From the NCBI GenBank assembly GCA_959347315.1, contig OY365806.1:38281439-38345438 (forward strand): a DNA stretch of 64,000 bases. The letters are read 5' to 3'. Shown here one piece after another: positions 1 through 56,030 of this stretch. Numbering within the stretch: the first letter of the stretch is position 1; every line of letters starts with the position of its first letter. The DNA comes from Bimastos eiseni. Its lineage: Eukaryota; Annelida; Clitellata; Crassiclitellata; Lumbricidae. Below the pieces are notes generated by a model that made no database searches, was not told the origin of the DNA, and worked only from the letters and a program-made list of their open reading frames with translations. Position numbers and translations under genes: made by a program.

Positions 1-1228
1 TGTTTTCTGTTTGTACCGCCATCAGTCTGTTAAAGTTCTTTATCCAACAATAATGCTTCTTTTCTCCATCAGAAATGAGTAGCAGATCTACACACTTATC
101 GTTCTCATGCTCTGATAAATATAGCGGGAATAGACGGACATCTTTCTCGAAACCAAAGACATTAACACTAATATTATTATTTCTCTCAAACTTATTTATA
201 ACATTATCATCTGCAGCTACTGGGAATTCGAATGCCAGACCAATCAAGTTCTTCAGATTGTGTTTTTAATTCTTTCGTGATTCTGTCTGAATTCTTATCA
301 GCCGGGTTTAAGGCTCTCGTTACACACCACTTGAAGCAATCTTCGTCTTCGTTCTTCATATTAACAATAGCCTTTTTACTCGCTAGACATTTCGGTGGTG
401 GATCGTAAGAACTACCCTTCAGCGTTTATATGCAACCGTATTGATATCTAATTTTGTAACAGCTCTAAGTCTCCAGTTACTACCTCGCATCTGGAAGGCA
501 GCCATTGATTCTAAGATTTTATCTCTGGCATTATTAAATATTTCGCTCGGGTTGGTAGAGTTTAAAATAACTTCGGTCCTAGAGACGAAAGGAAAATCTG
601 TGGAATCTACTTGTCCGGTTTTCATATCTACACACTCCATTGTGCAGGTAAGGACAAAATTGACCTTAGTCTGACGATTTTTTGTCAACAAGTCTACCGC
701 CTGTGTTCCAATGGTGTTAAGAAAAGATGTGGCGTCAATTCCGCTTGCTCCTTCGACCGTGTATTGTTTCGTGAAGCCCTTGATGGTTGAGGCCGTCTCA
801 CTTATTTTGAGTGTTCTCATATGAATTTGACTGAACATAGAATTCACTTTGGCTTTTAGTGCTTCTAACTTTTCATTCACCTTTCTCTTTGGTTCTTCAG
901 GTATATGCCCTTCGATCCATTTTGCAAATGTATTAATCGCTGATCTAGTTTTGTCGTAAACTTCTAGCGCTGTCGTGGCTGGTACGGGTTCGAGTGTTTG
1001 GATTCGAATGTCAGGAACCGGTGCATCAAGCAAACTAACGTTGGTTGAGACCTTGTTCGCTGAAATTTTACTAATCAAATCCGCTCTACGCAATCTCGTA
1101 TAACCTACCAAACCGCTCTGTTTAGCAATTTTTCGTGATTCAATAACATTTTTCTTTGAGTATTCCATTTTATATTGGGGTGACATGTCTTTAAGTAGAA
1201 CTGTGAAAATATTTTCTGGTCTATTCAT
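1..1228 (-). pseudogene. Maverick/Polinton copy A: N-terminal part of protein-primed DNA polymerase B
   Basis: The minus strand, read from the ATG at 1228, encodes the leader region of the polymerase polyprotein found in Maverick/Polinton elements. A SAP/Rho-N-like helix pair lies near residues 25-60 (motif KIAKQSGLVGYTRLRRADLI). It is followed by the FAKWIEGHIPEEP segment and a region ending KLDINTVAYKR. A frameshift near 420 moves the reading to another frame, which continues to the window edge with NMKNEDEDCFKWCVTRALNP, NVFGFEKDVRLFPLYLSE and HYCWIKNFNRLMA. All of these are found again in copy C. The catalytic domain would lie to the left of the window. This copy still has the SAP-like start that copy C has lost, so it is a separate and differently decayed insertion. 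An ATG further upstream (1318) is also open, but 1228 fits the family start better. Confidence 0.8.
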
Positions 1229-1318
1229 TTTATATACACAAGATTTGTTGTTGTTGTTGAACTGCTGACTCGTCGAAAACTTTGGATATTCCTTTGGCTT
1301 TTGACTTATAGGGAGCAT

Positions 1319-5192: not shown

Positions 5193-5369
5193 ATATCTGA
5201 TACAATATATAACATAACACGAAGCATGATCGATGATAACAATTATGCAAAACTGGGAACCGGAATGATGATGAAAAGAATCATAATTAAAATATAAGGT
5301 AATGGATAAGAGAATTCTATTTGTCGTGGAATCATTTTAGTCACAATCTTTTACCAATCTCGCTTCCAA

Positions 5370-5725
5370 TTAACGGTCATTATTTTTCATCAATCCAGCT
5401 TCCATTTCGGCATAATTCTTTTCATCAATCCAGCTTCCATTTAAGTATAATTCTTTTCATCAATCCAGTTCCCATTTAAGCATGATTCCTTTCATCAATC
5501 CAGCTTCCATTTAAGCATAATTATTTTTATAATTCCAGCTTCCATTTAAGCATGAATATTTTCATCAATCCAGCTTCCATTTAAGAATGAATAGTTTCAT
5601 CAATACAATATCCATTTAAGCATGATTCTTTTCGTCAATTCAGCTTAAAAATATCCTTTCATTGATCCGGCTACTAGTTAAACATGATTATTTTCACCGA
5701 TCCCTCTTCTACTACCGATGCTCCC
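5370..5725 (+). repeat. 35-bp satellite, cluster 1
   Basis: About ten head-to-tail units match TTTTCATCAATCCAGCTTCC followed by ATTTAAGCATRATTC. The 35-base period is exact in the first units. The cluster ends in CCCTCTTCTACTACCGATG, which recurs reverse-complemented at about 12130-12150 beside cluster 2. That shared edge shows the clusters are copies of one larger repeat. Confidence 0.9.
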
Positions 5726-21955: not shown

Positions 21956-22414
21956 AGATATACATTCGATTCAGTAAATAATAATATTTTACTATCCAAA
22001 CTGAATAACTTAGGCATACGAGGTTCGGCTTTGACCTGTTTCCAGAGCTACTTAGACAATAGACTACAATACGTTTCCTGTAATGGCATTACCTCCACAA
22101 CCAATCCTACAAAATAAGGGGTTCCTTAAGTTTCCATTTTAGGCCTCCTCTTGTTTTTATCTTTCATTAATGACTTGCCAAATGCCTCATCACTTCTCTA
22201 TTTTCTACTTTTTGCTGATGATACTAGTATTCTAGCCTCCCATTGCTCGCATGCCGAACTAATTTCTCTACTAAATCGAGAACTTCTCCTTCTTGGCAAC
22301 TGTTTCTCAGCGAATAAGCTCTCTTTCAGTGCTACTAAAACCAATTATATTCTCTTTGCTTCTCATCGCAAACGACCGCCTTTATCCGACCTTGTACTGC
22401 CAATAAATAACACT

Positions 22415-22572
22415 CCGATCAAAAGGGCGAGAATTAAAAAGGGTGCAATCAAAAGGGCGCAATCAAAAGGCAAATATCATAAGAGCGAACGTTCAAAAGA
22501 GCGCATGATCAAAAGGACGACAATCGAAAAGGCGCCCGTTTATAAACGCGACAGTACCAAAAGTCATATATA
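22415..22572. repeat. AATCAAAAGGGCG short tandem repeats
   Basis: About nine degenerate 15-18 base units (ATCAAAAGGGCG, ATCAAAAGGACG, AATCGAAAAGGCGC). They cut the LINE reading frame at 22410, so they arrived after it. Confidence 0.8.
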
Positions 22573-23781
22573 TTAAGTTTCTAGGCGTCCATGTTGATCA
22601 GTGTCTGATTTGGAATACGCATATTGAAAACATAGCATCTAAAATAGCAAAGAATATAGGAATCATATCACGCATCGCTCACTTATTACCTTCGTCTGTC
22701 TGCATCAGTCTTTGCTATTCTGTAGTTCACCCTTATTTAACATATTGCAAATTATTTTTGGGCGTCGAATTACCACTCGAGACAAAGTAAGCTTATCTCC
22801 CTACAAAGCAGTGGCTTTCGCGTTATTCGTAAGACCTTTAGATCAACTTCATGTAGGCCTAATATTTCCTCTCCTCAACTACGTATATTGAATATTAGAA
22901 AATTAACCTTAATGCAACTGAATGAATTTAATGTATATATAAATTTATAATCAACCAACTACCGCCAGTATTTACAATTTATTTTACTCCGGTCCACCAA
23001 ATTAACACGTATGGGCACCGCAATTCTTGTGACTGTAGACCTATCTATGCGCGCACGAAAACCCGCAAATTCTCTGCTAGATGTGGTGGTAGCGTAGCCT
23101 GGAAAAATGTGCCAAATGAAATACGTATCTTCACAGGCATCACTTTGTTTAAAAATAAACTACGCGAACATTTGTTGCATTCTATGTAAACTGTCGTGTA
23201 TTATATAGCTTCCTATTTGTTAGTTAACTAGTCAAGTTATTCACTCTACTATCATACATCCAAACGCCATCTATTTTCAGTTAAGTTGGTGTAATGATGT
23301 CCCTGTTAGCGTGACTTCGGTCCTTTTAGGGTCTATTCTTCCCCATTGTTTTACGGTCAATCCTCATTAAACTGTAATACTATTATAATTTTTGTCAATT
23401 GTCAGTTGATCAATAAAAGCGATTGGTTATGGTTACATATATTGTTAGGAGACAGTGCATGCGTCCGTAAGACTTGCGCCGTGTCTTAGATATAAACTGG
23501 ACTAAGCTACATATATTTATTGCATGCGTTCTGTTAGCTTAAGTTCGTATTGGACGCTCGAATATATTAGCGGCTATCGTAACACATGTCGGACGTTTGG
23601 CCTAATACTGGGATGGACTTAGGTGTATCTAGGTAGGCGTATATATTCGCTTGGGTATAAGTACAAGTAGACGGTGCTGGGTGCGTCGTAGAGCTTAAGA
23701 CACAATTCTCATGTAAGGTAGACGGCTGAGTTGTAGCTCGTTGTTGCGACGTCTTATTTAGTTAAATAAGAAATCCCAAAG

Positions 23782-24250: not shown

Positions 24251-26512
24251 TACACCAACAGGTGCCAAAAACACACTCCTAGCTCGCTTTGCTACTGTAT
24301 AAAATGTTTCGACGATAGCCTGTATTCACAAGACCCCGTGTTTTTCACGGCTAAAAGCGAAGACGACGATGTTGCTCAGATATTCGTAGATACTCTTGCA
24401 AGGATTATAAGAGAAATATGTGATCGATTTAAATCTGAAAAGAGTATGATTTTCTCCGAGGAGGATGAGAAGCGATTTGAAGCGGCTGCCGACTCTCATA
24501 TCTGTGGAGGTGAGTTGGGAAACGATCGAGTAAGAGATCATTGTCATCTGACCGGTAAATTTAGAGGCGCTGCACATGATGAGCGTCATCTGAACTATAA
24601 AGTTCCAACGTTTATCCCGGTGGTCTTTCACAATATATCCGGGTACGATAGCCACCTATTTATACAGAATTTAAGAAGCGATAATATCGAGAATATCAAT
24701 TGCATTCCCATAAATGAAGAAAAGTACATATCGTTTAGCAGAGAGGTAATGGTCAATGAGTTCATTGATAAAGAAAAAAACAAAGAAATCATTGTAAAGC
24801 GTACATTACGATTTATCGATAGTTTTAGGTTCATGGCAGCAAGTCTCGACGGCCTATCGAGAAACCTAAGCAAAGATCAGTGTAAGAATCTAAGCGAGTT
24901 TTAAGGTGGTAATCAGCTCGATCGTTTACTGAGAAAAGGAGTTTATCCTTACGATCACGTTGATTCCGTTGGACGATTGAACGACACAGAACTACCACCA
25001 AAGTCGGCATTCTATTCAAAACTTAACGACTCGGACATTAGTGACAAAGATTACGAGCACGCATGAACGGTATGGAAAGAATTCGGATTCAAGACGTTAA
25101 GAGAATATCATGTTTTATACAACGTTTCGGATGTTCTCCTACTTGCCGACGTATTCGAGAAGTTTAGAAACGTTTGCAGCGAGCTCTACGGTCTTGATCC
25201 CGCTTGGTATTATATATCTCCAGGCTTTGCTTGGGACGCCTCTTTAAAGATGGCCGGTGTTAACTTGCAGTTGCTGAGCGATTACGACATGATTCTTATG
25301 ATAAAGAATAGGATTAGAGGAGGTATCAGCACCATTTCAAATCGTTACGTGAGAGCAGCAAACAGCAAGTACATGGGAGAAGCGTTCGACGGTAGTAAAC
25401 CATCATCGTTCGCAACCTACCTAGACGCGAACAACCTGTACGGATGGGCTATTGGAGATCGACGCCGTGTATATTAGAAGTCGATTGAGAATATCCCGAC
25501 AAGTTACACGATTCTCACAACGACTATCTTCTAGCTCCCGAGAGCGTTAAGCCTGAATCATCAACCGCTTCTAAACTCATTCCGAACTTGAACGATAAAG
25601 AAAAGTACGTAGTGCATAACGAATATTTTAAGCTTTATGAAAACTTGAGTTTGAAGGTAACTAAAATTCATCGAGGAATAAAATTCGAAGAAAGCGCTTG
25701 GCTGAAAACGTGTATCTACCTGAAAACCGAGTTGCAAACGAAACCCGCCAACGATTTTGAGAAAGATTTTTTCAAACTGATGAATAATAGCGGGTTTAGG
25801 ATGACTTGTGAATATATCCATAAACGTGAAGACATAAAGTTGGTTTGCAACGAGAAGAAAGCCATCAAACTAGCGGTGAAACCGAGTTATGATAGTCGAA
25901 CTATTTTCGACAAGAATCTAATCGCCATTCACATGAAAAGAACGAAACTTTTTTTACAACAAACCGATATATCTAGGGATGTGTTTCCTCGATTTGAGCA
26001 AAACGTTGATGTACGACTTTCACTACAGCTACATCAAGAAGAAATACGATCACAAAGCTAAACATCTTTTTACGGATACGGATTCGCTGGCTTACGAAAT
26101 CAAAACCGACGATTTTTACGCTGATATCGCAGAGGATGTTCGAAGTAGATTCGATACCAGCGAGTATCCATCTAGGAATCGAAACCGGAATCAACAAGAA
26201 AGTCATCGATATGTTTAAAGACGAAGCCGGTGGAAAACATATCGCAGAGTTTATCGGTTTGAGATCGAAGCTGTACTCGTACAGGATGGTTGAAGAGGAC
26301 CATAAGAAATGTAAATGGGTTAAGAAGAGCGTCGGCACGAGGACGATTACTCACGACGATTACAAGGACTGCCTCTTCACCAGTAGAGAACAATCGAAAA
26401 AAATGAACGTCATACGGTCGCGTCTACACCGAAGAAGTGAACAAAGTCTGCGGATGACGACAGGCCAGTAATCCAGGAAGATGGAACTAGCACATTTGCA
26501 TACGGTCATTAA
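24251..26512 (+). pseudogene. Copy B protein-primed DNA polymerase B (pPolB), truncated
   Basis: This piece starts inside the exonuclease domain. The endonuclease VII-like HNH insert is visible (CGGELGNDRVRDHCHLTGKF). FHNISGYDSHLFIQNLR is the exonuclease II motif. Polymerase motif A is FATYLDANNLYGWAIG (about 25420-25465). The motif B region contains LMNNSGFRMTCEYI (about 25777), where the usual FGK is altered. Motif C is FTDTDSLAYEI (about 26070). The C-terminal MFKDEAGGKHIAEFIGLRSK and KDCLF follow. Stops after LSEF (24902) and RRVY (25475) and several frameshifts kill it. In living relatives this enzyme copies the element from a terminal protein. Copy B keeps motifs A and C, which copy C lacks or has altered. 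Confidence 0.9.
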
Positions 26513-28383: not shown

Positions 28384-28700
28384 TCGCATCAGAATGTTTT
28401 TATATCCGTCTTTATCGATATAGCTCTGACGTAGCATTTCGTCGCATATACCGACATCTCGTTTCTTAATCCCGTGTTTTCCGCTCGCAGCTAGCCATTC
28501 GCAGACCAAGCATATCCATCAATGCATTAGGATCTTGTGGGAGAACGACGAATCCTTTGCCAGTCGCGATGATGTTTGTCTTCGCATCCCATATCGGTTT
28601 ACTGATATTTCTATAATTTCTGCTCTTGGACGATTTATGTCTGTTCGGATTATCCGGTTGTCTGATGGCGTTCGTCAATTCAAAAATATCCTCGTACTCT
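28384..28700 (-). pseudogene. Copy B conserved Maverick gene (GTPGLWEL family), C-terminal remnant
   Basis: The frame reads RQPDNPNRHKSSKSRNYRNI, KPIWDAKTNIIATGKGFVVL and LPQDPNALMDMLGLRMAS. It matches the C-terminal half of the gene at 50161-51062 in copy C. The N-terminal half is gone: at about 28700 the sequence jumps into the near-identical 1.48 kb block. The role is unknown. The family recurs beside pPolB genes in invertebrate genomes. Confidence 0.65.
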
Positions 28701-29058
28701 TCGACGCGTCAAATGTCTCGAGTTCACGTTGCATTAACGAATATTCCTCGTTCGAGATACTTCCGTCTTCTAAAGCATTCGAAACGAGCCCACCGATCAT
28801 ATTGAGGTTTGTCTCCCCTGACGTCTCGATCCTTTCGTGTTTCGTTAATTTTGGCTTTAGTTTTTGATTGATTAGACCACCTACAACACCCATCGTGCCA
28901 GCTACTGAAGCCGCTACTCCCGCAGCCATCGCAAGCGGTTCTGCAATCCCAGTACCTAGCAAACTGACCCCTGTCATAGCGAGCGCTGTCGTAGATATTG
29001 TTAGGCAGTTTTTCAACGCGTTGATTATCTTCACACTTCTACGGTACTTTTTACTCAA
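28675..29058 (-). CDS. Copy B small membrane-type Maverick protein (SKKYRRSVKI family)
   Basis: The 127-codon frame starts SKKYRRSVKIINALKNCL. Two hydrophobic segments follow (about residues 20-40 and 40-65, rich in Ala/Gly/Val). A charged C-terminal domain comes next (KHERIETSGE, LEDGSISNEEYSLMQRELE). The arrangement suggests a small membrane-associated virion protein. Relatives sit in Mavericks of cnidarians and other invertebrates. The real protein probably begins further upstream, where LSKK is preceded by another open stretch with frameshifts. Copy C has the same gene at 51234-51608, differing in only a few residues except at the C-terminus, where the two copies diverge after ELETFDA. 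Confidence 0.65.
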   Translation of the reverse strand: MSKKYRRSVKIINALKNCLTISTTALAMTGVSLLGTGIAEPLAMAAGVAASVAGTMGVVGGLINQKLKPKLTKHERIETSGETNLNMIGGLVSNALEDGSISNEEYSLMQRELETFDASKSTRIFLN

Positions 29059-29395
29059 CGCTGCTCTTTTATTGAGTTCTCGAGCTATCTCTTCTGAAAT
29101 TTCAGTGATTTTTTAAAGTCGTTACTCGGGCGCATGTCCATCGACTTCATCTGTCGTAAAGCATGGTTTCTCGCGTTTTACTCTTTCCATCTTTTCTTTT
29201 AATTAGTTAACGAATATCTTATCTTCACACCTCTACGGTATTTTTTACTCACCGCCGCTCTTTTATCGAGTTCTCTAGTTATCTCTTCTGCAATTTCGGT
29301 GATTTTTTAAAGTCGTTACTCGGGCGCATGTCCATCGACTTCGTCTGTCGCGTTTTACTCTTTCCATCTTTTCTTTTAATTTAGTCGATACATTA
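29028..29395. repeat. About 185-bp diverged tandem duplication inside copy B
   Basis: ATCTTCACACTTCTACGGTA through CATCTTTTCTTTTAATT occurs at about 29028-29203 and again at about 29219-29385, with roughly 10 percent differences and one 15-base gap. Copy C has the same duplication at 51578-51935, so it predates the exchange or was carried by it. Confidence 0.85.
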
Positions 29396-29819: not shown

Positions 29820-30186
29820 TTATAGCAACCACCCGAGAATTGGAATGTTTTGGAACGGCGAATGAAGACCGAGGATAAGTCCTCTTACTAGATTTGCGAA
29901 CACAGGACCATTACGGATATAGATTCCTTGTCCTGCGTTCTCTAATCCTTTTTCCATCCACGGTTTCATGTAAGGGCCCTCGGCGTGACGTACAATCTTT
30001 ATGTTGTCACCTCCTCTTTTGATGTATTTAGTTCAACCGCCCGAACCGCTTATTTCGTCTATAACTTTCGACTCAGTCGATGCGCCTATACCGGTTAAAG
30101 CTCCCGTCTCCAATTTAGGTAATACGCTCAATAGAAGGAATCTACCTGCAGTTGCTAGAAAGACTAGTATGGAGCCGATAAGATCA
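29820..30186 (-). pseudogene. Copy B small tail/core-type Maverick protein, cut by LINE insertion
   Basis: The minus strand carries a hydrophobic helix region (LAFLATAGRFLLLSVLPKLE then GALTGIGASTESKVI), GQGIYIRNGPVF and a C-terminal HSPFQNIPILGWLL before the TAA at 29820-29822. One TGA sits in the middle. The conserved end and GALTG block place it with a small protein that is next to pPolB in many Mavericks. The N-terminal part (present in copy C at 52740-52978) is replaced by a LINE fragment from about 30184. Confidence 0.65.
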
Positions 30187-30475
30187 TTGTAAGGTAGGAG
30201 ACGTAGGGTGACCGGGAGCCAATTCCAGGTGGATGGACCAACCACTGAGAAAGCTCGACGCAGCATTAGCGACGAGCTGGTCCCAGACACAATAAGGTCG
30301 CCTTCAGCAGAAGAACTCAGAGCTCCACGCGAAAGAAGTTGAGACACCTGACGACACAGTTCAGTCAAGTAGGATGGCGCACAACCAGAGAGACACCGCC
30401 AAACTAGTGTCGCAATGCGAAAAGTAATGCGCTGTTGAACCGCTAGCCAGTGAAAGACATCGAGCATATAAGATG
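30184..30475 (-). mobile_element. LINE 3' fragment inserted in copy B
   Basis: The minus strand encodes FHWLAVQQRITFRIATLVWR, YLTELCRQ and SVVGPSTWNWLPVTLRLLP, the C-terminal end of a CR1/L2-like reverse transcriptase. It is fused in frame to the small Maverick gene on one side and follows the minor-capsid candidate on the other, making an accidental 386-codon open frame (30033-31193). Confidence 0.85.
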
Positions 30476-30486
30476 AAACCGGTAAA

Positions 30487-31272
30487 AATTTAGGTATAAA
30501 TGAGATATTTGCTCTCACGCTTCTCTGATATGGAACCTTTTTGATCGGTAAGCGTCGTTTCCATTGACGAAATCGTAGACATTGTGTCGGGGACTCGGGG
30601 AGGTATATCAAATTTTTCGGTGCTTCGACGACCTTGTACCCGGGTCCTGCGTTCGGAAAAAAGGAATAAATAACTTTTTCAGTGGTTCCTTTCGTATACG
30701 ATGCTCCGATTTTATCACTCGTTATCTTTAAACTCGTAATACTCATTATATCGACCAAGTACTCTGATTCGTTGTAAGCCGACGTGTGTCTTTGGCCATT
30801 GAACCCGAGAATCGTTCTGATATAGTTCGGAGTCGTAAAATTAACCACGTAATTCTCAGCTAAGTTCAAAACAGTCTTCAGCGTATTGTTGTTGGCTTCC
30901 AACCCGATAGTGTGACTATCGCTTTGAATGTCGTAAAGTCCATCCTTCTTCATGACTCCCTGCACATATTCCTTTATATCCGTAATTTCGTAGCAGCCTT
31001 CTGGAACGTCCAAATTAAACCACGTCTCTCCACCATCCGGATAATATCTTAAGTTGTTGTTCGTCGCGTCGATATTTGGCCAAGAGTAGTACCTTTCGAG
31101 ATTTATTAGAGTCATTTCATACTTTTTGTTTTTGTTGAGCTTGATCAACGGATTGAACCTAGTCCTTATTCGCGTACTTTTTTCACTCAACAAAATATAA
31201 ACGACGACTTTGGCTTCGTGTTACGAGCCGTCCTTTCGTGATGTCAGCGATCTTTTGAAGAAGAAATTCCAT
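30487..31272 (-). pseudogene. Copy B minor-capsid (penton-like) candidate
   Basis: From the ATG at 31272 (MEFLLQK) the frame has one TGA near 31187 and then continues for about 230 codons. YSWPNIDATNNNLRYYPDGG is followed by WFNLDVPEGCYEITDIKEYV, IRTILGFNGQRHTSAYNESE and VIYSFFPNAGPGYKVVEAP. NLIYLPE ends this core region. The beta-rich, about 250-residue protein is a recurrent neighbour of the capsid gene in invertebrate Mavericks; penton-like is the usual reading but is not proven here. The end is altered near the LINE junction. Confidence 0.65.
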
Positions 31273-32121: not shown

Positions 32122-33563
32122 ATGTTCTGCGTTAAATGTAAGACACAAACCGAAACTAAAAATATCCAGTACGTCTTTTGGAAAAATGGGCGTCTTATGC
32201 TCAGAGGCACGTGCGCCGTGTGTGGAACAACAAAGACGCAATTCGTGAAAGCTTCAGACGCTGGTGATCTAGTTTGGTCTCTAAACTCGTTCGCTCGTAA
32301 TATAAAATTACCCTGGGCTAAATATTTCGGTGAGATGCACCTTCCCGGTCACTCGTTTACGGGACCCGGAACTAGATTAGATTAGAGACGGAATCCCGAC
32401 GGGACTCCGAAAGATTGGTTGAAGCCAGTTGATAGATTCGATAACGCCGCTTATCGCCATGATTTAGCCTACGATCGGTATTCCGACACAGCGTCTATTA
32501 ATGTCACCGATAAAGCGATGATAAACGAATTAAACAACATTCATAACCCTAGCGTACGAGAACTAATCGAGCGTACTATAGTCAAACCTCTCCTGGCTAC
32601 CAAATCGAGTCTAGGGTTAGGAGTTTCCGATTTAAAAAACTTCAAAATTACGAGAAAAAAGTGTCCATTGAAATGGACCGATCAACTCGCCGAAGAATTA
32701 CACAAGCCCGTTGTAAGGAGTCTTAGGAAAAGAAAAGTGTACGTTTGAGGCATCAACCAAATCTGGGCGGCGGATTTAGTCGACATGCAGTCTTTCGCCG
32801 AAGATAACGATGGCGTTAAATACCTGTTGACCGTCATAGACGTATTTTCCAAATACGGTTGGATCGTTCCGATAAAGAGTAGAATATCTACGACTGAATG
32901 GTTCGCTAAGATACTCGAGAGCAGCGGAAGGAAGCTGGGTAAACTTAGGGTAGATAAAGATAAAGAATTTTAAAAAAAGACTTTATAAAGCTGGTCGAAT
33001 TGTATTTGACAGAGAACGAAGAAAAATCGTGCGTCGTAAAACGATGGAATCGAACGATGAGAGATGAGATGTTTAAATACTTTTCGGCTAATTCGACAAG
33101 AAGATAGATTGACGTGTTAGATGTAGTGGTTAATAGTTATAACGAAACAAGACATGCTTCCATTAAAATGACGCCCGCTAAAGAGAGCATGAAAGAAAAG
33201 GAAAAGACTGTATGGATGAATTTATACGGCATAGAAGCTTCTGAACCCATTAAACCTAAATTATCGATCGGTGGTAAGGTTAGAATAACGAAGAAAAGGA
33301 CGACCTTTGAAAAGGGGTATACACCTAAATGGACTGAAGAAGTCTTTACAATTACTAAAATTCAATACACGGATCCTCCAACTTATAAGATTGCTGATTA
33401 CAACGGTGAAGAAATACAGGGCTCGTTCTAAAAACAGGAGCTTCAAAAGACTTCGCAAGAAATATTTAGAGTCGAAAAGATAATGAGGAAACGCGGAAAC
33501 AAGTGGGTGGTTAAGTGGCTCGGTTACGCGGATTCGCTTAATTCCTGGGTGAGATAACGAGGA
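32122..33563 (+). pseudogene. Copy B zinc ribbon / PLA2-like / integrase / chromodomain fusion
   Basis: One reading direction joins four parts. A zinc ribbon comes first (FCVKC...CAVCG, residues 2-35). A parvovirus-type phospholipase A2-like motif follows: HSFTGPGTRLD as the calcium loop, NPDGTPKDW, and the catalytic AYRHDLAYDRY. DDE integrase follows with WAADLVDMQ and LLTVIDVFSKYGWIVP. The third acidic residue is changed to Lys in VVKRWNRTM. Last is a C-terminal chromodomain (EIFRVEKIMRKRG, KWLGYADSLNSW). TAG near 32383 and TGA near 32746 lie in the same frame as the flanking coding parts. Copy C has GGA at the second position, so the parts were one protein in the ancestor. It starts 42 bases from the divergent ATPase gene, so the gap must hold a two-way promoter. 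Confidence 0.82.
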
Positions 33564-40040: not shown

Positions 40041-40389
40041 CTGAGAAAACAAGGAAAGAAAAAGACAGCCGTGTGAGAAAGTAGGTAACATTAACTTATA
40101 CCAAAGCCACCACTACTATTACTTTTCACATGCACATTCAACTGCTCACAGGTGTATGTTTCTTTCGAATTCAAAACCATAAACTACTGAATAAGAACTG
40201 ATCAGTGTCATCATTCACACTCATAATAGGTATCATGAAAATAGTGAAACATTGCGAATAGCCATAATTTTTTTTTCATTTCGTGGTCATATAATTATTG
40301 CAACGTCTCACATATGGATTGCTTGGTACTATTTCACCTATTGCTTACAAATTCAGCTTTAATGTGTTAGCGAATTTTATCAGCAATAA

Positions 40390-40745
40390 AACGTCTATTA
40401 AACCATTAATTTTTTCATCAACCCAGCTCCCAGTTGAATATAATTCTTTTCATCAGTCCAGCTTCAATATCGGCGGCATTCTCTTAATCATTCAGGCCTC
40501 CAATTGAGCACGATGTGCTTCATTAATCCAGCTTCCATTTAAGCATGATTTATTATTTCAATCAAGCTTCCTTTTAAGCATGAATCTTTCCAAGTTTTCA
40601 TCAATCTAGCCCACATCCTACAAAATTCTTTTGATCCATCCAGCCTCTAGGCAAATAGGATGCTATTCGTTTATTCAGCTTCTATATATAGTTGAATGGA
40701 ATTTTTCATCAGTTCATCTTTGTTTCAAACATCATATTAAGTAAC
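40390..40745 (+). repeat. 35-bp satellite, cluster 3
   Basis: About ten units of TTTTCATCAATCCAGCTTCC type, some diverged. A GCGCATTTGTC short-repeat block at 40940-41025 follows at a distance, as in the other cassettes. Confidence 0.85.
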
Positions 40746-44513: not shown

Positions 44514-47447
44514 TATCTTCCGTTCCGTCCGCGACAGTATATAAAATCTACGAAATTTTCAATTCAGCGATTCATAAATTCGCAAAGTGGTAGAAGGATA
44601 CATTTCCAAATAATCAAAGAAAAAGGTGAGTGAGAAGCTAGAAGAATTGAAAGCAAAAGTTAGCTCCATATTCAGAAAAAATAATAAACATAATTTCGAG
44701 ATTCAGCAGACGGCGTCAACCATAAAAGGCTTCACTATGCAGAACACTATTAATGAAGCTGAAGGAATCGACGCCATGTCTTTTTTTAACATCGTTCAGC
44801 CCCAGGTAGTTAGCCTGTTGTCTGGAAATCGGCAGACAAAAGTCAATATAGCTCTCACCTGTACAATGGAACGCATTGATATGAAAACTGGGCAAGTAGA
44901 TTCTTGTAATTTTCCATTCGTCTCTAAGACTGAAGTCGTTTTGATGCAACCTACCCGCAAGAAATATTTAATAATGGGAGATACAAAATCTTAGAGTCTA
45001 CGGCTAGCTTCCAGATGCGTGGGAGTAACTGGAGACTCAGAGCTGCTGTGAAATTGGATATCAACACGATTGTTTATAAACCGTTTAAAGGTTATTCTTA
45101 TATTAAACTACCGAAGAATTTAGTGAATAAAAAAGCTATTGTCAATATGAAGAACGAAGACGATGAATGTTTCAAGTGGGGCATTGCGAGAGCGTTACAC
45201 CCAATGGACAGCCATCATGAAAGAATAACGAGAAAATTGATAAAACAATCCGAGGAGTTAATTGGATCGACATCGAATTCCCAGTTTCTGCAGATGCCAA
45301 CGTGATGAATAAGTTCGAGAAGAACAACAATGATTGGCTTAACGTTTTGGATACGAAAGCGGTGTATTTCCAATTTATGTGACGAAGCAGTCGCAGGAGA
45401 CTGAAATAGTCAACCTATTACTCATTTCTGACGGAGAAAGTAAGCATTATTGTTAATGCTTAATGATTGGCTTAACGTTTTGGATACGAAAGCGGTGTAT
45501 TTCCAATTTATGTGACGAAGCAGTCGCAGGAGACTGGAATAGTCAACCTATTACTCATTTCTGACGGAGAAAGTAAGCATTATTGTTGGATAAAGAACTT
45601 TGACAGACTGATGGCGGCAAGGACGGAGAAATCCCATAATTCGATGCATCACTGTAAAAGATGTTTCATCGGTTACAGAGAGATAGAGTCATTGAATAGA
45701 CATGACGAGTAATGCTCGTAGAATAACGCTCAAAGAATAGAACTTCCAGAATCGGGAACCACGTTGAGATTTAATAATTATTGTAGCTCAATGATAGTTC
45801 CTTTTATCGTGAACGCCGATTTCGAATGTTTCATCAAACCGATCGACCCGCGTCAACCAGACCCTCGCGTGTCCTACACCAATAGGTACCAAAAACAAAC
45901 CTCCAGCTCTTTTTTTTATTACGTGAAATTCTCCGACGATAGCTTGCATACGCAAGACCCCGTGACTTTCTCGTCTAAAGGCGAAGACGACGACGTTGCT
46001 CAGATATTCGTAGATACTCTTACAAGGAATATAATAGAAATATATAATCGATTCAAATTTTCCAAGGATATGATATTCGGAGAGGAAGAAGAGGCACTAT
46101 ACGACTCGGCTACCGATTGTCATATCTGTGGAGGTGAGTTAGGAAAAGATCGAGTAAGAGTTCATTGTCATCTCACCGGCAAATTCAGAGGCACCGCTCA
46201 CAGCAAGTGCAATCTAAAATATAATGTTCCAAAGTTTATCCCGGTGGTCCTTCACAACCTATTCGGATACGATAGCCACCTATTTATTAAGAAGTTACGA
46301 GGTAACAATAACGAGAATATTACCTGCATTCCCTGCAACGAAGAAAAGAATATATCTTTTAGCAGAGAGGTTGTAGTTGATAAGTTTTTAAATAAAGAAA
46401 ACAAAGAAATCATCGTTAAGCGCACATTACGTTTTAATAGACAGTTTTAGATTCATGGCATCAAGTCTCGACGCTTTATCGAGGAACCTGAGCACAGATC
46501 AGTACGTAGTGCATCACGAAAACTTGAAGCTGTACGAAGCCTTAAGTTTGAAGGTAACCAAAATTCATCGAGGGATAAAATTCGAAGAAAACGCTTTGTT
46601 GAAAAAGTAAATCGATCTGAATACCGAGTTGCGAACAAAAGCCGCCAACGATTTTGAGAACGATTTTTGTAACTGATGAATAATAGCGTGTCTGGGAAGG
46701 CTTATGTAAAAATCCATATCGTGTGGACACAAAATTGGTTTGCGACGAGAAGCAAGCCATTGAGTTAGCGGCGAAACCGAATTACGTATGGCGAACCATT
46801 TTCGATGAGAATCTAATCGCAATTGACATGAAAAGAGCGAAACTGTATTACAACAAACTGATGTATCTAGGTATGTGCATCCTCGATTTGAGCAAAACGA
46901 TGTACGACTTTCACTACAGTTACATCAATAAGAAATACCACCATAGAGCTAAATTGCTATATACCGATATGGATTCGCTGGCTTATGGAATCAAAACCGA
47001 TGATTTTACGCGGATATCGCAGAGGATGTTCGAAGTAGATTCGATGCCAGCGAATATCCTAGAGACCATCCTTCTGGAATCGAAACCGGAATCAACAAGA
47101 AAGTCATTGGCATGTTCAAAGACGAAGCCGGTGGAAAACAGATCGAAGCATTTGTAGATTTGAAATCGAAGCTGTACTCGTACAGAATGGCTGAAGAGGA
47201 TTATAAGAAATGTGAAGGCGTTAAGAAGAGCGTCGTCAAGAGGACAATTGCTCACGACGATTACAAGGACTGTCTATTCACCAAAAGAAAACAATGGAGG
47301 AAAATGAACGTCATACTGTCGCATCTTCACGACGTCTATGTCGAAGAGGTGAACAAAGTTGCGATGTCTGCGGACGACGATAAGCGAGAAATCCAGGACG
47401 ATGGAATTAGCACGTTGGCATGCGGACATTACTCCATGCGCTCATAA
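44514..47447 (+). pseudogene. Copy C protein-primed DNA polymerase B, core deleted
   Basis: The leader region starts KIYEIFNSAIHKFAKW; the SAP-like start seen in copy A is gone. It continues KLEELKAKVSSIF, MRGSNWRLRAAVKLDINTIV, NMKNEDDECFKWGIARALHP and a zinc-finger-like CKRCF...H. The exonuclease I motif is FIVNADFECFI (about 45800). The HNH insert is HICGGELGKDRVRVHCHLTG and exonuclease II is LHNLFGYDSHLF. At about 46503 some 724 bases present in copy B (24881-25604) are missing, removing exonuclease III and palm motif A. Motif C reads YTDMDSLAY instead of DTDS. The C-terminal MFKDEAGGKQIEAFVDLKSK to STLACGHYS is well kept. Confidence 0.9.
45331..45587. repeat. 124-bp tandem duplication in the copy C polymerase
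   Basis: Bases 45331-45454 are repeated at 45464-45587 with one difference (GACTGAAATAG against GACTGGAATAG). The near-identity shows a recent event that breaks the frame. Confidence 0.95.
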
Positions 47448-47943: not shown

Positions 47944-48600
47944 ATGTCAGTCGATAAATTTGGACGTACGGATGCGGAATCTACCCAAAGAGTGGTTTCG
48001 GAAAGTGTTACCCTACCTCAAGCGAGTAATACATTTCTAAGACGAGATGGCTCTAACGCTATGGACGGTGATTTAAACAAGCACGGTAATTCGATAAAAG
48101 GTTTACCGACAACGTATCATCCTCCGTTAGGCGCTCCTGGGCTCGAGTTACCGCTCTAGTAAACGATGCGAGAACGAAAAATACCGCCTCCCCAACTAGT
48201 GATAACCAGCTAGTTAATAAGAGACACGTCGACGAAATGATCGCTAGACGTTACGTGACCGCCTACCATGACTTAGAAGAAATCGACAATCGATGGTCTT
48301 ACTTAAGTGGCCAGCGCGAGCGCATATCGCACCGCTGGTTTGGTTGAATTCGAGCCTTGGAGAGCGTTTCAAAACTTAAATTCTTACCCAATGTGTTGGA
48401 TCGTTGATGCACCGACCAATGTTTGGATTCAGATGAAATATCCGGTTCCTTTGTCTATGTCGGGGATTAACATCATTATAAAGTTACAAGTAGCCTTGAT
48501 CTGGATATCGACGACCGACGATTTTAACCGCTCAAATTGTTTGCTCACGTCGAAAACGAACAGCGGGCAAAGGCTTTATGATCGGTCTGTGTGATAATGC
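47944..48600 (+). pseudogene. Copy C fibre-like protein (candidate receptor-binding spike)
   Basis: MSVDKFGRTDAESTQRVVSE opens, and TFLRRDGSNAMDGDLNKHGN follows, a short collagen-free repeat style common in phage and viral tail fibres. After a frameshift near 48145, SDNQLVNKRHVDEMIARRYV continues. At 48340-48480 the frame PWRAFQNLNSYPMCWIVDAP, TNVWIQMKYPVPLS and MSGINI resembles a discoidin (F5/8C-like) sugar-binding fold (trp-rich strand, VWIQ..YP.P). The gene is absent from copy B. It overlaps or converges on the end of the capsid gene. The receptor-binding role is inference from design and position. Confidence 0.5.
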
Positions 48601-49649
48601 TCTGAGTAACGAGTTGATCCATGCCATAGAATTTATCGCTAAACGTCGCCGCATCTCTGTTCGCTCTCGAAAACTTTTGATTCGGGAACGAGAGGTTGTA
48701 GTCGACCGCCGGATATCCTTCCTGGTTCATCATCATGCACATTTTTTTGAGATCGCAATGATAGAAAATCGATAGATTGGCTTCTTGATCGCCACTCCGA
48801 TTCGTCTGAAGTCCTACGATGATATATATCGGTGTTTCAGAAACCGTCTTAATGCCTATACGCCAACTGAACGTAGTCGCTTGAGTAAGCGATATGGTTT
48901 CGTATTGATGGGCGCGATAGGCTACGGGCACCGCCGATTTTGCTTTGATCGTTTTATACAGCTGCATTCTGTCCATGTCCCACGGAGTCACGTGCGGCAT
49001 AAACCACATGGTTTACTTTTCCAGCATTGACTGCGTTAGCATTATAAATAGCATCGTCGTCAGATTTACGAACTATCGCTAATGGCAGTTTCATATCAAA
49101 GATGATCTTATCGCAGAATCCGAAAATGTGCTTGAGAGGCACGACGAAACTGAACGTGCCTGTAGCCGTCGATTTCTTAATGAGATACGCTTGTCTGATT
49201 GCAAATCTCGAGCTATCCGCTATAGCGGCAGTCACCGTGGTATCTTTTGTCCACAGTTGGTTAAGACCTTGCGTGAGAGCAAAGTCGTTTGAATTTTTCA
49301 GTAAAGCCAGCATCGTCGTGGCTTGTCCCGGATGATAAACCGATTCGATGTCTTGACTCGAAGGAGCATACGATATCTGGTTGAACAGATGCACGAGTCC
49401 GTGGTTGGTGATGGCTACGGCGTCGTCATTGATGTACGCTGTTCCTTCAGCTTTCGTCAGCATTCCTTCGAATAACAGGTACGTCTCTGAATGGATGGCT
49501 AAACAGAAGTTGAAGTTCAATGTTCATACGAATCTCGCCGGCGCTGTTTAGATTCGTTCTAGCTACCGGCTCATATTCGTGTCATTCGTATTCTCGATTC
49601 CCTCGTCTGTTAGGGGAACGTCAGTAAATCTTAAAATATCTGATTGCAT
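48470..49649 (-). pseudogene. Copy C major capsid protein candidate
   Basis: From the ATG at 49649 (MQSDILRFTDVPLTDEGIE) an early frameshift near 49580 leads to a long frame. It carries LLFEGMLTKAEGTAYINDDA, HLFNQISYAP, YHPGQATTMLALLKNSNDFA, GTFSFVVPLKHIFGFCDK, VRKSDDDAIYNA, MPHVTPWDMDRMQLYKTIKA, YRAHQYETISLTQATTFSW and NLSFPNQKFSRANRDAATF. CLFVFDVSKQFERLKSSVVD then ends the recognisable part. Two or three frameshifts are present. This is the same family as 27000-27890 in copy B. Its length (about 380 codons) is below the usual DJR capsid size because the C-terminal part is lost or overwritten by the fibre gene boundary. Confidence 0.75.
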
Positions 49650-51245: not shown

Positions 51246-51608
51246 CTTTTTCAACGCGTCAAATGTCTCGAGTTCTCGTTGCATTAACGAATATTCCTCG
51301 TTCGAGATACTTCCGTCTTCTAAGGCATTCGAAACGAGCCCACCGATCATATTGAGGTTTGTCTCCCCTGACGTCTCGATCCTTTCGTGTTTCGTTAATT
51401 TTGGCTTTAGTTTTTGGTTGATTAGACCACCTACAACACCCATCGTGCCAGCTACTGAAGCCACTACTCCCGCAGCCATCGCAAGCGGTTCTGCAATCCC
51501 AGTACCTAGCAAACTGACCCCTGTCATAGCGAGCGCTGTCGTAGATATTGTTAGGCAGTTTTTCAACGCGTTGATTATCTTCACACTTCTACGGTACTTT
51601 TTACTCAA
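51234..51608 (-). CDS. Copy C small membrane-type Maverick protein (SKKYRRSVKI family)
   Basis: 124 codons, with the same sequence as 28675-29058 apart from a few changes; the C-terminus differs after ELETFDA (LKKGLT here). Two hydrophobic segments precede a charged helical end. It is part of the 1478-base block shared with copy B. The upstream frame is broken as in copy B. Confidence 0.65.
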   Translation of the reverse strand: MSKKYRRSVKIINALKNCLTISTTALAMTGVSLLGTGIAEPLAMAAGVVASVAGTMGVVGGLINQKLKPKLTKHERIETSGETNLNMIGGLVSNALEDGSISNEEYSLMQRELETFDALKKGLT

Positions 51609-52731
51609 CGCTGCTCTTTTATTGAGTTCTCGAGCTATCTCTTCTGAAATTTCAGTGATTTTTTAAAGTCGTTACTCGGGCGCATGTCCATCGACTTCAT
51701 CTGTCGTAAAGCATGGTTTCTCGCGTTTTACTCTTTCCATCTTTTCTTTTAATTAGTTAACGAATATCTTATCTTCACACCTCTACGGTATTTTTTACTC
51801 ACCGCCGCTCTTTTATCGAGTTCTCTAGTTATCTCTTCTGCAATTTCGGTGATTTTTTAAAGTCGTTACTCGGGCGCATGTCCATCGACTTCGTCTGTCG
51901 CGTTTTACTCTTTCCATCTTTTCTTTTAATTTAGTCGATACATTATCTTAAGTATCAATCGAAGTAATAAACGAGTTATTTTACGTGGCAAAATGGGCCT
52001 CCTTCGATTATGGTAACTACGGAATCTGAGTTGTTTTGAATCGCAATCGTGAAATCGTCAACGGTTTCAGCATACGTTCCGTCATGAATGATGCATCCGA
52101 CTGCTTTGATATTCTGTCTCAATGAAACCAGGTTCACTCCTCTAGCCATTCGCACTCCTATTCCTAGCGCTAACGTGATCGTCTCTCAAGGCTGAATCGT
52201 AATTCACTTTGAGCAAATATCTCCTATCTTTGTCCTCCGTGCAGTCTTGTGTACCACTTGTGTTTTCGGTCTCCAATCCGGCTGAGTTCTAAACGAACTC
52301 GGACGAGCGGGTTTTGTATACCCCATTTTGTGTATTGGTCATGACATTTTATCGATAGGAAATTTGATTTTATAGCAACCACCCGAGAATTGGAATGTTT
52401 TGGAACGGCGAATGAAGACCGAGGATAAGTCCTCTTACTAGATTTGCGAACACAGGACCATTACGGATATAGATTCCTTGTCCTGCGTTCTCTAATCCTT
52501 TTTCCGTCCACGGTTGCATGTAAGGGCCCTCGGCGTGACATACAATCTTTATGTTGTCACCTCCTCTTTTGATGTATTTAGTTCAACCGCCCGAACAGCT
52601 TATTTTGTCTATAACTTTCGACTCAGTCGATGCGCCTATACCGGTTAAAGCTCCCGTCTCCAATTTAGGTAATACGCTCAATAGAAGGAATCTACCTGCA
52701 GTTGCTAGAAAGGCTAGTATGGAGCCGATAA
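51254..52731. repeat. 1478-bp block almost identical to copy B 28704-30181
   Basis: Same length and about a dozen differences by eye. Even the internal 185-bp duplication (51578-51935) and the same stops are shared. Sequence on both sides is much more diverged between the copies. Confidence 0.88.
51950..52350 (-). pseudogene. Copy C small gene, possibly dUTPase-fold
   Basis: Same content and same stops as 29400-29800: GIGVRMARGVNLVSLRQNI, GCIIHDGTYAETVDDFTI and NNSDSVVTIIEGGPFCYV. The dUTPase comparison rests on motif spacing only. Confidence 0.4.
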
Positions 52732-52989: not shown

Positions 52990-53806
52990 AGATATAAACT
53001 TCTAATACTCTCACACTTCTCTGATATGAAACCTTATAGATAACTCCTCTCGCCTTGGGGTTAATCAGTTTAGCTTTCTGATATGTAAGCGTCGTTTCCA
53101 TCGACGAAAGCGTTGACAGAGTGACAGGGAGGTATATCAAATTTGTCGGTGCTTCGACGACCTTGTACCCGGTCCTACGTTCGGGAAAAAATAACGTTTT
53201 CAGTCGTTCAATTCGTATACGAAGTTCCGATGATATCGCTCGTTATCCGTAAACTTGTAATACTCATTATATCGTCTAAGTACTCCCGATTCGTTGTAAC
53301 ACGACGTATATCTTTGGCTTTTGAACCGGAAAATCGTTCTGATAGAGTTCGGGGTCGTAAAATCGACCACGTAATTCCCCGCTACGTTCTAAACAGTCTT
53401 TAGCGTATTGTTGTTAGCTTCCAACCCGATAGTGTAAGTATCGCTTTGAATGTCGTAATGTCCAACTTCTTTCATGATTCTCTAGTCGTATTTGTTTATA
53501 TCCGTGATTTCGTAGCAGCAGTTCCTTCTGGAACATCCAAGTTAAACCACGTTTTTTCGGATGGTGATCCGATGAATATCTTAAGTTGTTGTTCGTCGCG
53601 TCGATATTTGGCCAAGAGTAGTACGTTTCGAGATTGACTAGAGTCATTTCATACTTTTTATTTATGTTGATCTTGTTCAACGGATTGAATCGAGTCCTTA
53701 TTCGCGTACTCTTTTCGATCAACAAAATGTATAACGACGACTTTGGCTCCGTGTTACGAGTCGTCGTTTCCGTATTGTTAACGACCTTTTGAAGAAGAGA
53801 TTCCAT
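52990..53806 (-). pseudogene. Copy C minor-capsid (penton-like) candidate
   Basis: The ATG at 53806 opens MESLLQKVVNNTETTTRNTE, then NKKYEMTLVNLETYYSWPNI and DATNNNLRYS. Frameshifts near 53570 and again near 53300 break it; the recognisable later parts (the GFNG-like region and YSFFPN/PGTRS region near 53150-53200) are in other frames. The end near 52990 reads KVSYQRSVRVLEVYI. It is more decayed than copy B 30487-31272. Confidence 0.62.
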
Positions 53807-53824
53807 TGCTTTTATTATACACTT

Positions 53825-54549
53825 TTAGGAGGATATGTAAAATTCATCGAAACCGCATCTATACTTTCCCTTGTTCTTTTCGCTCGTTTGACCAATCGCT
53901 ACAAATCCGTGAGAAAGTTTCCACGCTATCTCGTATAGTTTTTTATTCTCCTCCTCAGGCATGTCCGTACTCACGTGATAGTTATAGACGTGATTAATAT
54001 TTTTCTGGTCTTGAGGAAACAAACAGATAAAGTTTGCATTCTCTCTGATCAACTGTCTTGGCAGTTTGAAATAGTTATGTGCGAGGTAATAGTTATCCAC
54101 GCTGCTATGCCTTCCTCTAATGTAATACGTCTCGCTTTTGTTTGGTTTTTCTAACGGCAATTCGTCGAAAATCATCAGGTTCGTCTTTTCGCGTTCTAAC
54201 TCTCTCGGGTCTAGTACGTCTTCCGACAATTCGAAGAACTTGCAATTCATATCGGATTTTTTATATAATTGTTGCTTAGCCATTTTCTCAACTATGCATG
54301 CCGGAGATACGCTGAGTCTCATAATCTCGTCTTGACTAGCGAATAATCGGATGATCGCTTCTTTCGGTATCCTTTCTTCGAATGTTTTCTTGAGTATTTT
54401 ATGCTTTGGTTGAAAGAGAGATCTTCCAAATACTTGTAGGTTATTGTAGTCTAACCATCCGGGACTAAGAAGTAAATTAAGCAGCAGAGTCGTACTACCA
54501 CATCCAGATTATCCTACGAATCGTTCCACGATAAATCTTTCACTTCCAT
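53825..54549 (-). pseudogene. Copy C A32-like packaging ATPase
   Basis: MEVKDLSWNDS is followed by a stop and frame change, then SGCGSTTLLLNLLLSPGWLD: the Walker A motif has Ser in place of the catalytic Lys. VFGRSLFQPKHKILKKTFEE leads to a long open frame (53825-54322) with Walker B LMIFDELPLEKP, IRENANFICLFPQDQKNINH and SHGFVAIGQTSEKNKGKYRC. It is longer and cleaner than copy B at the C-terminal side, but the Walker A change alone would abolish ATP hydrolysis in this family. Confidence 0.85.
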
Positions 54550-54591: not shown

Positions 54592-56030
54592 ATGTTCTGC
54601 GTTAAACGTAAGACACAAACCGATACTAAAAATATTCAAAGCGTCTTTGGCAAAAATGGACGTCCTCTGCTCCGAGGCACGTGCGCCGTGTGCGAAATAA
54701 CAAAGACGCAATTCGTGAAGGCTGCAGAAGGCGGCGATCTAGTTGGATCTCTAAACTCAATCACTCGTATACTGAAATTGCCTTGGCCTATATTTCCCGG
54801 TGAAATGCATCTTCCGGTCACTCTTTTACGGGATCCGGAAATAGACTGGATTTGAGATTGAACCCCGACGGGACTCCGAACGATTGGTCGAAACCAGTTG
54901 ATAGAGTCGATAACTCCGCTTATCGCTACGATTTAGCTTACGATCGGCATTCCGACACAGTGTCTAGGAATGTCTAGGAAAGCCATGATAAGCGAATTAA
55001 ACAACATTCTTAATCCTAACGTACAAAAGCGAATATAGCGTACAATTGTCAAACCTATCCTGGCTACCAAATTGAGTCTCAGGTTAAGAGTTTCCGATTT
55101 TAAAAAAAGTTCAAAATAACAGAAAAAGTTCTCCGTTGAAGTGGACCGCTCAATTCGCTGAAGAATAACACAAGCCCGTTGTATGGCAATTTAGAAAAAG
55201 GGCGGTGCACGTTGGAGGCATCGATGGAATCTGGGCGGCTGATTTAGTCGATATGCTGTCTTTCGCCGAAGATAACGATGGCGTTAAATACCTGTTGACC
55301 GTAATAGACGTATTTTCCAAGTACGGTTGGATCGTTCCGTTAAAGGATAAGAGCGGAAAATCTACGGCTGATGGGTTCGCTAAGATACTCGCAATCAGCG
55401 GAAGGAAACCGGAAAAACTTTGGGTAGATAACTGTAAAGAAACTGATCGAGTTGTATTCGACCGAGAATGAATAAAAATCGTGCGTCGTCGAGCGATGGA
55501 ATCGAACGATGAGAGAAAAGATGTTTAAATACTTTTCGGCTAATTCGACAAGAAGATATATCGACGTGTTAGACGTTAAGCATAACAGTTATAACGAAAA
55601 TAAACATTCCTCCATTTAAATGACGCCCGCTAAAGCCAGTAAGGAAGAAAACGAAAAGGCCGTCTGGATGAATTACTACGGCCGCGAAACTCCTGACCCC
55701 ATTAAACCTAAATTATTGATCGGTGGTAATGTTAGAATAACGAAGAAAAGGACGACCTTTGAAAAGGGCTATACACTTAGATGGACTGAAGAAGTCTGTA
55801 CAATTACTAAAGTTCAATGCACGGATCCTCCAACTTGTAAGACTGCTGATTTTAACGGTGAAGAAATACAGGGCACGTTCTATGAGCAGGAGCTTCAAAA
55901 GACTACGCAAGAAATATTTAGAGTCGAAAAGATAATCAGGAAACGCGGAAACAAATCGCTGATTAAATGGTTTGGCTACCCCGATTCGTTTAATTCCTGG
56001 GTCGATAACGAAGACTTTACGACGTTGTGA
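54592..56030 (+). pseudogene. Copy C zinc ribbon / PLA2-like / integrase / chromodomain fusion
   Basis: FCVKRKTQ shows the first zinc-ribbon Cys pair damaged (CVKC to CVKR) while CAVC is kept. After a frameshift near 54820 come GHSFTGSGNRLDLRLNPDGT and PVDRVDNSAYRYDLAYDRH, where the PLA2 catalytic His is replaced by Tyr. No stop separates this from the integrase: RAVHVGGIDGIWAADLVDML continues into YLLTVIDVFSKYGWIVPLKD and KPEKLWVDN. A short deletion follows the second acidic residue. The third acidic residue is intact (VVERWNRTM, about 55490-55515). The C-terminal chromodomain (TQEIFRVEKIIRKRGN, IKWFGYPDSFNSWVDNEDF) ends at 56030. The ATPase gene diverges 42 bases upstream. Confidence 0.85.

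Follow-up and report, generated by a model that had tools for sequence, protein, structure and literature searches.

Tandem PLA2 and integrase genes in Maverick copies

We analyzed a stretch of 64,000 nucleotides from the annelid Bimastos eiseni (hereafter the window; assembly GCA_959347315.1, contig OY365806.1, positions 38,281,439 to 38,345,438 of the forward strand). It holds two broken copies of a Maverick gene block that encode, in identical order, a DUF5679 zinc ribbon, a parvovirus-type phospholipase A2 (PLA2), an rve integrase core, and a chromodomain. Copy B lies at 32122-33554 and copy C, some 22.5 kb beyond it, at 54592-56027 (Table 1). In most copies of this block across the genome, the integrase is read in a different frame from the PLA2, and the change falls mostly at a run of A's where the two genes meet; in many relatives elsewhere, PLA2 and integrase appear to form a single open reading frame (ORF).

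Because copy B is broken, its pieces were searched separately: stop-free pieces were scanned one by one against Pfam (hmmscan, curated cut-offs). Profile matches bear out the domains, motifs, and order that an initial annotation of this DNA had proposed, including the parvovirus-type identity of the PLA2, which scores above the profile cut-off in copy B. The rve and chromodomain matches both score under their cut-offs, rve with E values of about 5e-6 in both copies and a cut-off of 32.6. Of the two motifs named in that annotation, TGPG and HDLAY, both are found in copy B, and copy C has TGSG and YDLAY in their place. The GPG of the copy B calcium loop is invariant or almost so across natural relatives, and the PLA2 piece of this copy has 26 homologues at E <= 1e-3.

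The proposed joining of these domains in one reading frame does not hold. The zinc-ribbon frame of copy B is closed by stops within the PLA2 and at the junction, and by a further stop (TAA) at 32971, and the distal integrase is shifted. Copy C changes frame between zinc ribbon and PLA2, inside both the PLA2 and the integrase, and also ahead of the integrase, at the A run or directly behind it, such that none of its calcium-loop/HD piece, integrase head, and distal integrase is in the zinc-ribbon frame. Copy C does have GGA where copy B has the junction TGA, as the annotation stated, but the ancestral fusion deduced from it does not follow: the frames of PLA2 tail and integrase head differ across the A run upstream, so the open GGA is no proof of an open fusion.

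The element around copy C has a double jelly-roll capsid gene, and the Maverick/Polinton identity is therefore right. A protein-primed DNA polymerase B is represented by a weak PF03175 match only (24338-24904, E 0.004, under cut-off), and no adenain-like protease or packaging ATPase was matched among the window pieces scanned, most of them short and broken. As part of the overall explanation developed below, and with the same roughly even confidence, we take the locus to represent a gene block, now decayed, from the right-hand side of Maverick (polintovirus) copies.

Table 1. Features of the two gene-block copies and of the capsid gene in the window
Feature	Position	Strand	Evidence or remark
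Copy B zinc ribbon (DUF5679, PF18930)	32128..32244	+	hmmscan E 9.4e-17, 61.3 bits, cut-off 27
Copy B PLA2 calcium-loop motif TGPG	32359..32370	+	translation
Copy B in-PLA2 stop TAG	32383..32385	+	between calcium loop and HDLAY, zinc-ribbon frame
Copy B PLA2 piece: HDLAY (32458-32472), PLA2 tail, start of integrase head	32386..32745	+	PF08398 E 1.3e-5, 25.8 bits, cut-off 23.9
Copy B T3-A6-C run, PLA2/integrase boundary	32631..32640	+	in frame here; frame-shifting site in most other copies
Copy B junction stop TGA (copy C: GGA)	32746..32748	+	zinc-ribbon frame
Copy B integrase core, first piece (rve)	32749..32970	+	PF00665 E 5.3e-6, 27.1 bits, under cut-off 32.6
Copy B distal integrase piece	33108..33428	+	frame differs from 32122; by-eye alignment to natural fused proteins; alone no Pfam match
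Copy B chromodomain piece	33432..33554	+	PF00385 E 0.0012, under cut-off
Copy C zinc ribbon (DUF5679)	54598..54714	+	PF18930 E 4e-13
Copy C PLA2 piece, shifted frame, TGSG and YDLAY	54804..54974	+	PF08398 E 0.019, 15.7 bits, under cut-off
Copy C T4-A7 run (A's 55102-55108)	55098..55108	+	frames of PLA2 tail and integrase head differ across run and bases just after
Copy C piece with integrase head and core; GGA leaves junction open	55169..55468	+	PF00665 E 5.5e-6, under cut-off
Copy C distal integrase and chromodomain piece	55620..56027	+	PF00385 E 3.1e-4, under cut-off
Element C double jelly-roll capsid piece	48548..49012	-	PF21738 E 1.1e-19, 71.2 bits, cut-off 27

A parvovirus-type PLA2 under purifying selection

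Maverick copies in this genome carry a parvovirus-type PLA2. The PF08398 profile gave 150 scored matches (653 candidates), all above cut-off, and no matches in 14 control genomes; HDLAY is exact in 90 of 106 copies. The structure predicted for one intact relative finds its matches among PLA2 folds, both viral and secreted. Sequence searches of the PDB returned nothing significant for the PLA2 piece of the window, and with the profile of alignment A2 they returned ribosomal protein S17e (0.0041) and capsids of the adeno-associated virus VP1 type (about 0.65 over 25 residues). Differences between distant copies at codon positions 1, 2, and 3 amount to 0.17, 0.10, and 0.35 in the PLA2 and to 0.16, 0.13, and 0.35 in the integrase. 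Purifying selection thus acted on both proteins during the active period of the elements.

The integrase departs from the PLA2 frame at an A run

We compared frames across the PLA2/integrase junction in 106 copies, made up of 104 of the 150 scored PF08398 matches and the two window copies. Relative to the PLA2, the integrase head is at -1 in 56 copies, at +1 in 37, and in frame in 12, with one unreadable; other anchors gave 57, 37, 11, and 1. These in-frame copies are counted at the integrase head, and further along, later indels scatter the frames: all five integrase anchors share one frame in 18 copies at -1, 9 at +1, and 4 at 0 (anchors alone, stops aside).

The shift occurs mostly at a TTTAAAAAA(A) run at the boundary. 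The PLA2 ORF mostly stops shortly after this run, and the integrase carries on in another frame, most often -1. Its usual form is GGTTTAAAAAA(A)G, and with the usual linkers seven A's place the integrase at -1, six at +1, and five in frame; at the run, 68 of 91 copies show U UUA AAA when read in the PLA2 frame. Of the 93 out-of-frame copies, 89 were tested for an ATG in the stretch from where the integrase frame opens to its first catalytic Asp, and 81 have none, including 49 of the 54 tested at -1. At -1, the integrase frame already opens ahead of the run, usually 36-54 nt before the head; at +1, it usually opens within or near the run, 18-30 nt before the head. A third arrangement is seen in the divergent copy L015 (C15:247801-250107 of this genome), where an ATG in frame with the integrase head stands 8 nt past the PLA2 stop; further on, the integrase core is read in the PLA2 frame.

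The copies are old, with a median end branch of 0.037 on a copy tree from which L038, its integrase head lost, was left off. Junction states interleave on this tree, with 38 changes against a shuffled mean of 40.5, and the in-frame copies represent 12 separate changes that form no clade.

Fused and stand-alone relatives sort by lineage

A search for fused relatives, with the unaltered open ORF of an in-frame copy from this genome (P0027) as query, recovered 2534 proteins at E <= 1e-5. Both PF08398 and PF00665 are carried by 109 of the best 120 of these, counted by eye, so the survey of intact relatives that the initial annotation had called for did find PLA2 and integrase within a single ORF. 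Among the same best 120 of 2534, which include proteins of Hydra vulgaris and Mya arenaria, 70 have a length of 462-475 amino acids (aa) and 92 reach 426 aa or more. The zinc ribbon and chromodomain are often part of the same ORF. When six fused relatives were scanned, PF00665 scored above cut-off in four and below it in two.

A second search, with a profile of the PLA2 part, recovered 1359 proteins at E <= 1e-15, and most of the best 120 are zinc ribbon-PLA2 ORFs that stand alone (among the 107 new ones, 96 measure 171-203 aa). Tails of 4 of 124 stand-alone proteins continue into an integrase head, and those on short contigs may in part be contig ends. Compared only with the sampled copies, the stand-alone relatives likely come from other species.

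A PLA2 tree was built with 184 labelled rows, of which 77 remained from the fused set after thinning and 107, of 165-215 aa, belong to the stand-alone set; P0027 is the single row from this genome. The fused and stand-alone states change 4 times on this tree, compared with a mean of about 59 when shuffled, and therefore sort by lineage. P0027 itself falls within a starred set of eight whose other seven members are stand-alone, the nearest being P0162 at 83%. Among DNA of viral contigs, we found no relatives with alignment A2 or the fused alignment A4, and alignment A3 gave five distant contigs of 3.3-3.5 kb at 32-35% identity, which were left out of the further analysis.

Flexibility is predicted for the PLA2-integrase linker, with almost all of residues 175-205 of P0028 modeled at a predicted local distance difference test score (pLDDT) below 50. 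A search of this region for protease sites gave no convincing adenain-type site. The boundary contains GxG in 111 of 119 fused proteins; this does little to support an adenain-type cut, since stand-alone PLA2 proteins share the GxG and P4 is mostly R or K. The strict adenain-type motif is found at the boundary of few fused proteins and is not specific to it.

Slippage as a candidate route to the integrase

The explanation that we favor, and consider about evenly balanced between right and wrong, is that the PLA2 serves in virion entry and that the integrase is reached by slippage, or is fused to the PLA2 outright in sister lineages. Encoded with its zinc ribbon directly before the chromodomain integrase, the PLA2 would travel inside the virion, as it does in parvoviruses, and open a host membrane during entry. 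Slippage at the TTTAAAAAA(A) run, either ribosomal (-1 on U UUA AAA) or transcriptional, would yield the integrase as an extension of the PLA2, giving much PLA2 and little integrase in the manner of retroviral Gag and Pol, and sister lineages would make both as one ORF. We consider slippage the most likely route because the integrase picks up from the run in another frame and without an AUG of its own. Transcriptional slippage is as likely as ribosomal, given the large +1 class and the lack of a downstream structure (see below), and could serve both run lengths. The A run may regulate the amount of joined protein.

According to the strongest competing explanation, which we judge unlikely, PLA2 and integrase are separate proteins, the integrase being made from a spliced message or by a non-AUG start or re-initiation, which would leave the A run under no frame constraint and its length to vary neutrally. 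The frequency of stand-alone PLA2 ORFs among relatives is consistent with this, as are the common occurrence of both A6 and A7 and their interleaving on the copy tree; L015 has an ATG in frame with the integrase head just past its PLA2 stop, and the PLA2-bearing CAP and the INT of Sf Mavericks are given as separate ORFs in the accessible text of PMC5803895. Against it stand the rarity of an ATG ahead of the first catalytic Asp in out-of-frame copies and the opening of the integrase frame upstream of the run in -1 copies and usually within or near it in +1 copies.

An ancestral in-frame fusion whose old copies have since decayed at a fragile A run is improbable, despite the age of the copies, the 12 that remain in frame, and the single-ORF fusions of sister lineages. 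In the same copies, 3 of 105 had a single-base change in an A6 run of the integrase and 1 of 105 had a change in an A5 run, and flank-matched runs (commonest length six, A or T) were changed in 8 of 70 rows; the junction, by comparison, is out of frame in 93 of 105. A flank-matched set of 32 copies has six A's at the junction in 16, seven in 14, five in 1, and eight in 1, and a second such set of 10 favors seven A's by 9 to 1. The junction run is more variable than matched five- and six-base runs, a comparison that contains no seven-base control. Taken with the interleaved states, the stability of the control runs makes a decayed in-frame ancestor unlikely. The initial annotation had regarded the fusion as ancestral; with 93 of 106 copies out of frame, no clade of in-frame copies, and P0027, the only PLA2 of this genome on the PLA2 tree, grouping with stand-alone ORFs, such an ancestor is unlikely for the lineage to which the window belongs. 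The stable control runs, which include none of seven bases, likewise disfavor explaining the frame change entirely by generic indel decay or by assembly error. That homopolymer errors of the assembly account for part of the run-length differences is very improbable: long reads tend to miscall runs of six to seven bases, the length of the affected site, but other five- and six-base runs in these copies are stable (with no seven-base control among them), and protein tails from other sources, read by eye, fit both run lengths.

Several observations weigh against the slippage account. The frame relation varies across copies, where a gene with a programmed -1 frameshift would be expected to keep it in all or nearly all: a simple -1 site leaves the 37 of 106 copies at +1 unexplained, and a further 12 of 106 are in frame. 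By linker, the long-linker group (40 copies) is at -1 in 28 and +1 in 8, which fits descent from an A7 (-1) state in which some copies lost an A; the short-linker group (51 copies) has more at +1 (25) than at -1 (22) and may have carried both run states, and linkers of other kinds occur in 14 copies. Decay can account for part of the A6/A7 split, since a seven-base run should change more often than the five- and six-base controls, and the conservation of the heptamer (75%) would be about equal to what neutral decay leaves over. No structured RNA stimulator was detected downstream in 30 copies (mean z of -0.44 over 60 nt and -0.21 over 90 nt), in a test with pseudoknots outside its range. A search with a fused relative gave many end-to-end matches (112; 87 of 2811 candidates scored). 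In five of these (L015, L061, L070, L072, and L090) the head is out of the PLA2 frame, which is regained later, and in L096 the integrase is at -1 throughout; because the search may join frames, as its span of L096 indicates, such matches are no proof of an in-frame lineage, nor do they speak against an unsampled one. As for sampling, 46 of the 150 PF08398 matches lie outside the junction sample. Length limits differed between the searches behind the fused and the stand-alone set, which kept each search from freely returning proteins of the other kind, and support on the PLA2 tree is sparse (22 of 181 branches starred).

As a tentative extension of the slippage account, less secure than the account itself, we propose a Gag-Pol-like scheme in which slippage places integrase on a small share of the packaged PLA2, one particle delivers both, run length sets their ratio, and lineages can switch to permanent fusion. 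On this account, a single virion protein should contain both PLA2 and integrase, and short and long product should occur in a fixed ratio. A physical or translational link between PLA2 and integrase would tie an entry function to genome insertion, and bears on the question of whether Mavericks are infectious viruses.

Other features of the window

The two elements share blocks at 28700-29156 and 51250-51706 that are 98-100% identical, compared with 80-90% for other long shared blocks, which suggests recent conversion or later insertion into both elements. Within the otherwise decayed element B, an open frame of 395 codons without a Pfam match occupies 30036-31220 on the minus strand; comparable parts of element C include repeat-matched blocks at 53288-54114 and open pieces at 53417-54508 (minus strand). 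A 299-aa ORF at 419-1318 (minus strand) has a weak Rho_N match (E 4.6e-4, under cut-off), and blocks at 250-556, beside this ORF, and 44949-45256, near element C, are inverted repeats of 72-81%; this region is possibly a piece of a third element. A Recombination endonuclease VII match just below cut-off (E 9.5e-5) lies at 45722-46447 on the plus strand; in Sf Mavericks, a weak endonuclease VII match within POLB is described in the accessible text of PMC5803895. Left of element B, 22130-22573 (plus strand) gives a weak reverse transcriptase match (E 0.0024, under cut-off). Arrays of a 35-bp unit of the TTTCATCAATCCAGCTTCCATTTAAG type occur at several places, including 5278-5704 and 40341-40627.

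Comparison with known systems

Both the PLA2 of Polintons and the integrase chromodomain are already published (PMC3671162, PMC4642659, PMC5803895, in their accessible portions). Yutin et al. (2015, PMC4642659) describe lipases in some Polintons whose closest counterpart is the parvovirus capsid PLA2, and propose that these are packaged and assist entry; a figure legend to element maps from 2013 names a PLA2 (PMC3671162). The PLA2 type is the same as here; the accessible portions of these two papers mention no integrase fusion, zinc ribbon, or A-run frame change. Sf Mavericks likewise have a CAP PLA2 with conserved catalytic and calcium residues and an INT with a C-terminal chromodomain (PMC5803895); they differ in the separation of the two ORFs, and the excerpted text names no zinc ribbon. 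Adintoviruses share an integrase with a chromodomain, and slippery sites were suggested for them, but for the penton gene (PMC11071296); the text of that paper as available contains no "PLA2" and a single "phospholipase", which concerns polyomavirus VP2. In the literature covered, mostly outside subscription journals and including accessible portions of PMC11071296, PMC5803895, PMC4642659, PMC3671162, PMC4061559, PMC3198968, and PMC6214176, we found no description of a PLA2-integrase fusion or of a slippery PLA2/integrase junction.

The VP1 PLA2 of parvoviruses and densoviruses matches the Maverick enzyme in profile (PF08398), in its GPG and HDxxY motifs, and in predicted fold; in VP1 the PLA2 is tethered to the capsid protein, whereas here a zinc ribbon precedes it and an integrase follows. 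In retroviral Gag-Pol, integrase is a minor frameshift extension of a virion protein. The Maverick arrangement differs in belonging to a DNA element, in its upstream protein, and in that no stimulator structure was found, and would be alike if the slippage explanation holds. In that case, an integrase-packaging scheme of the retroviral type would also have arisen in a DNA virus lineage.
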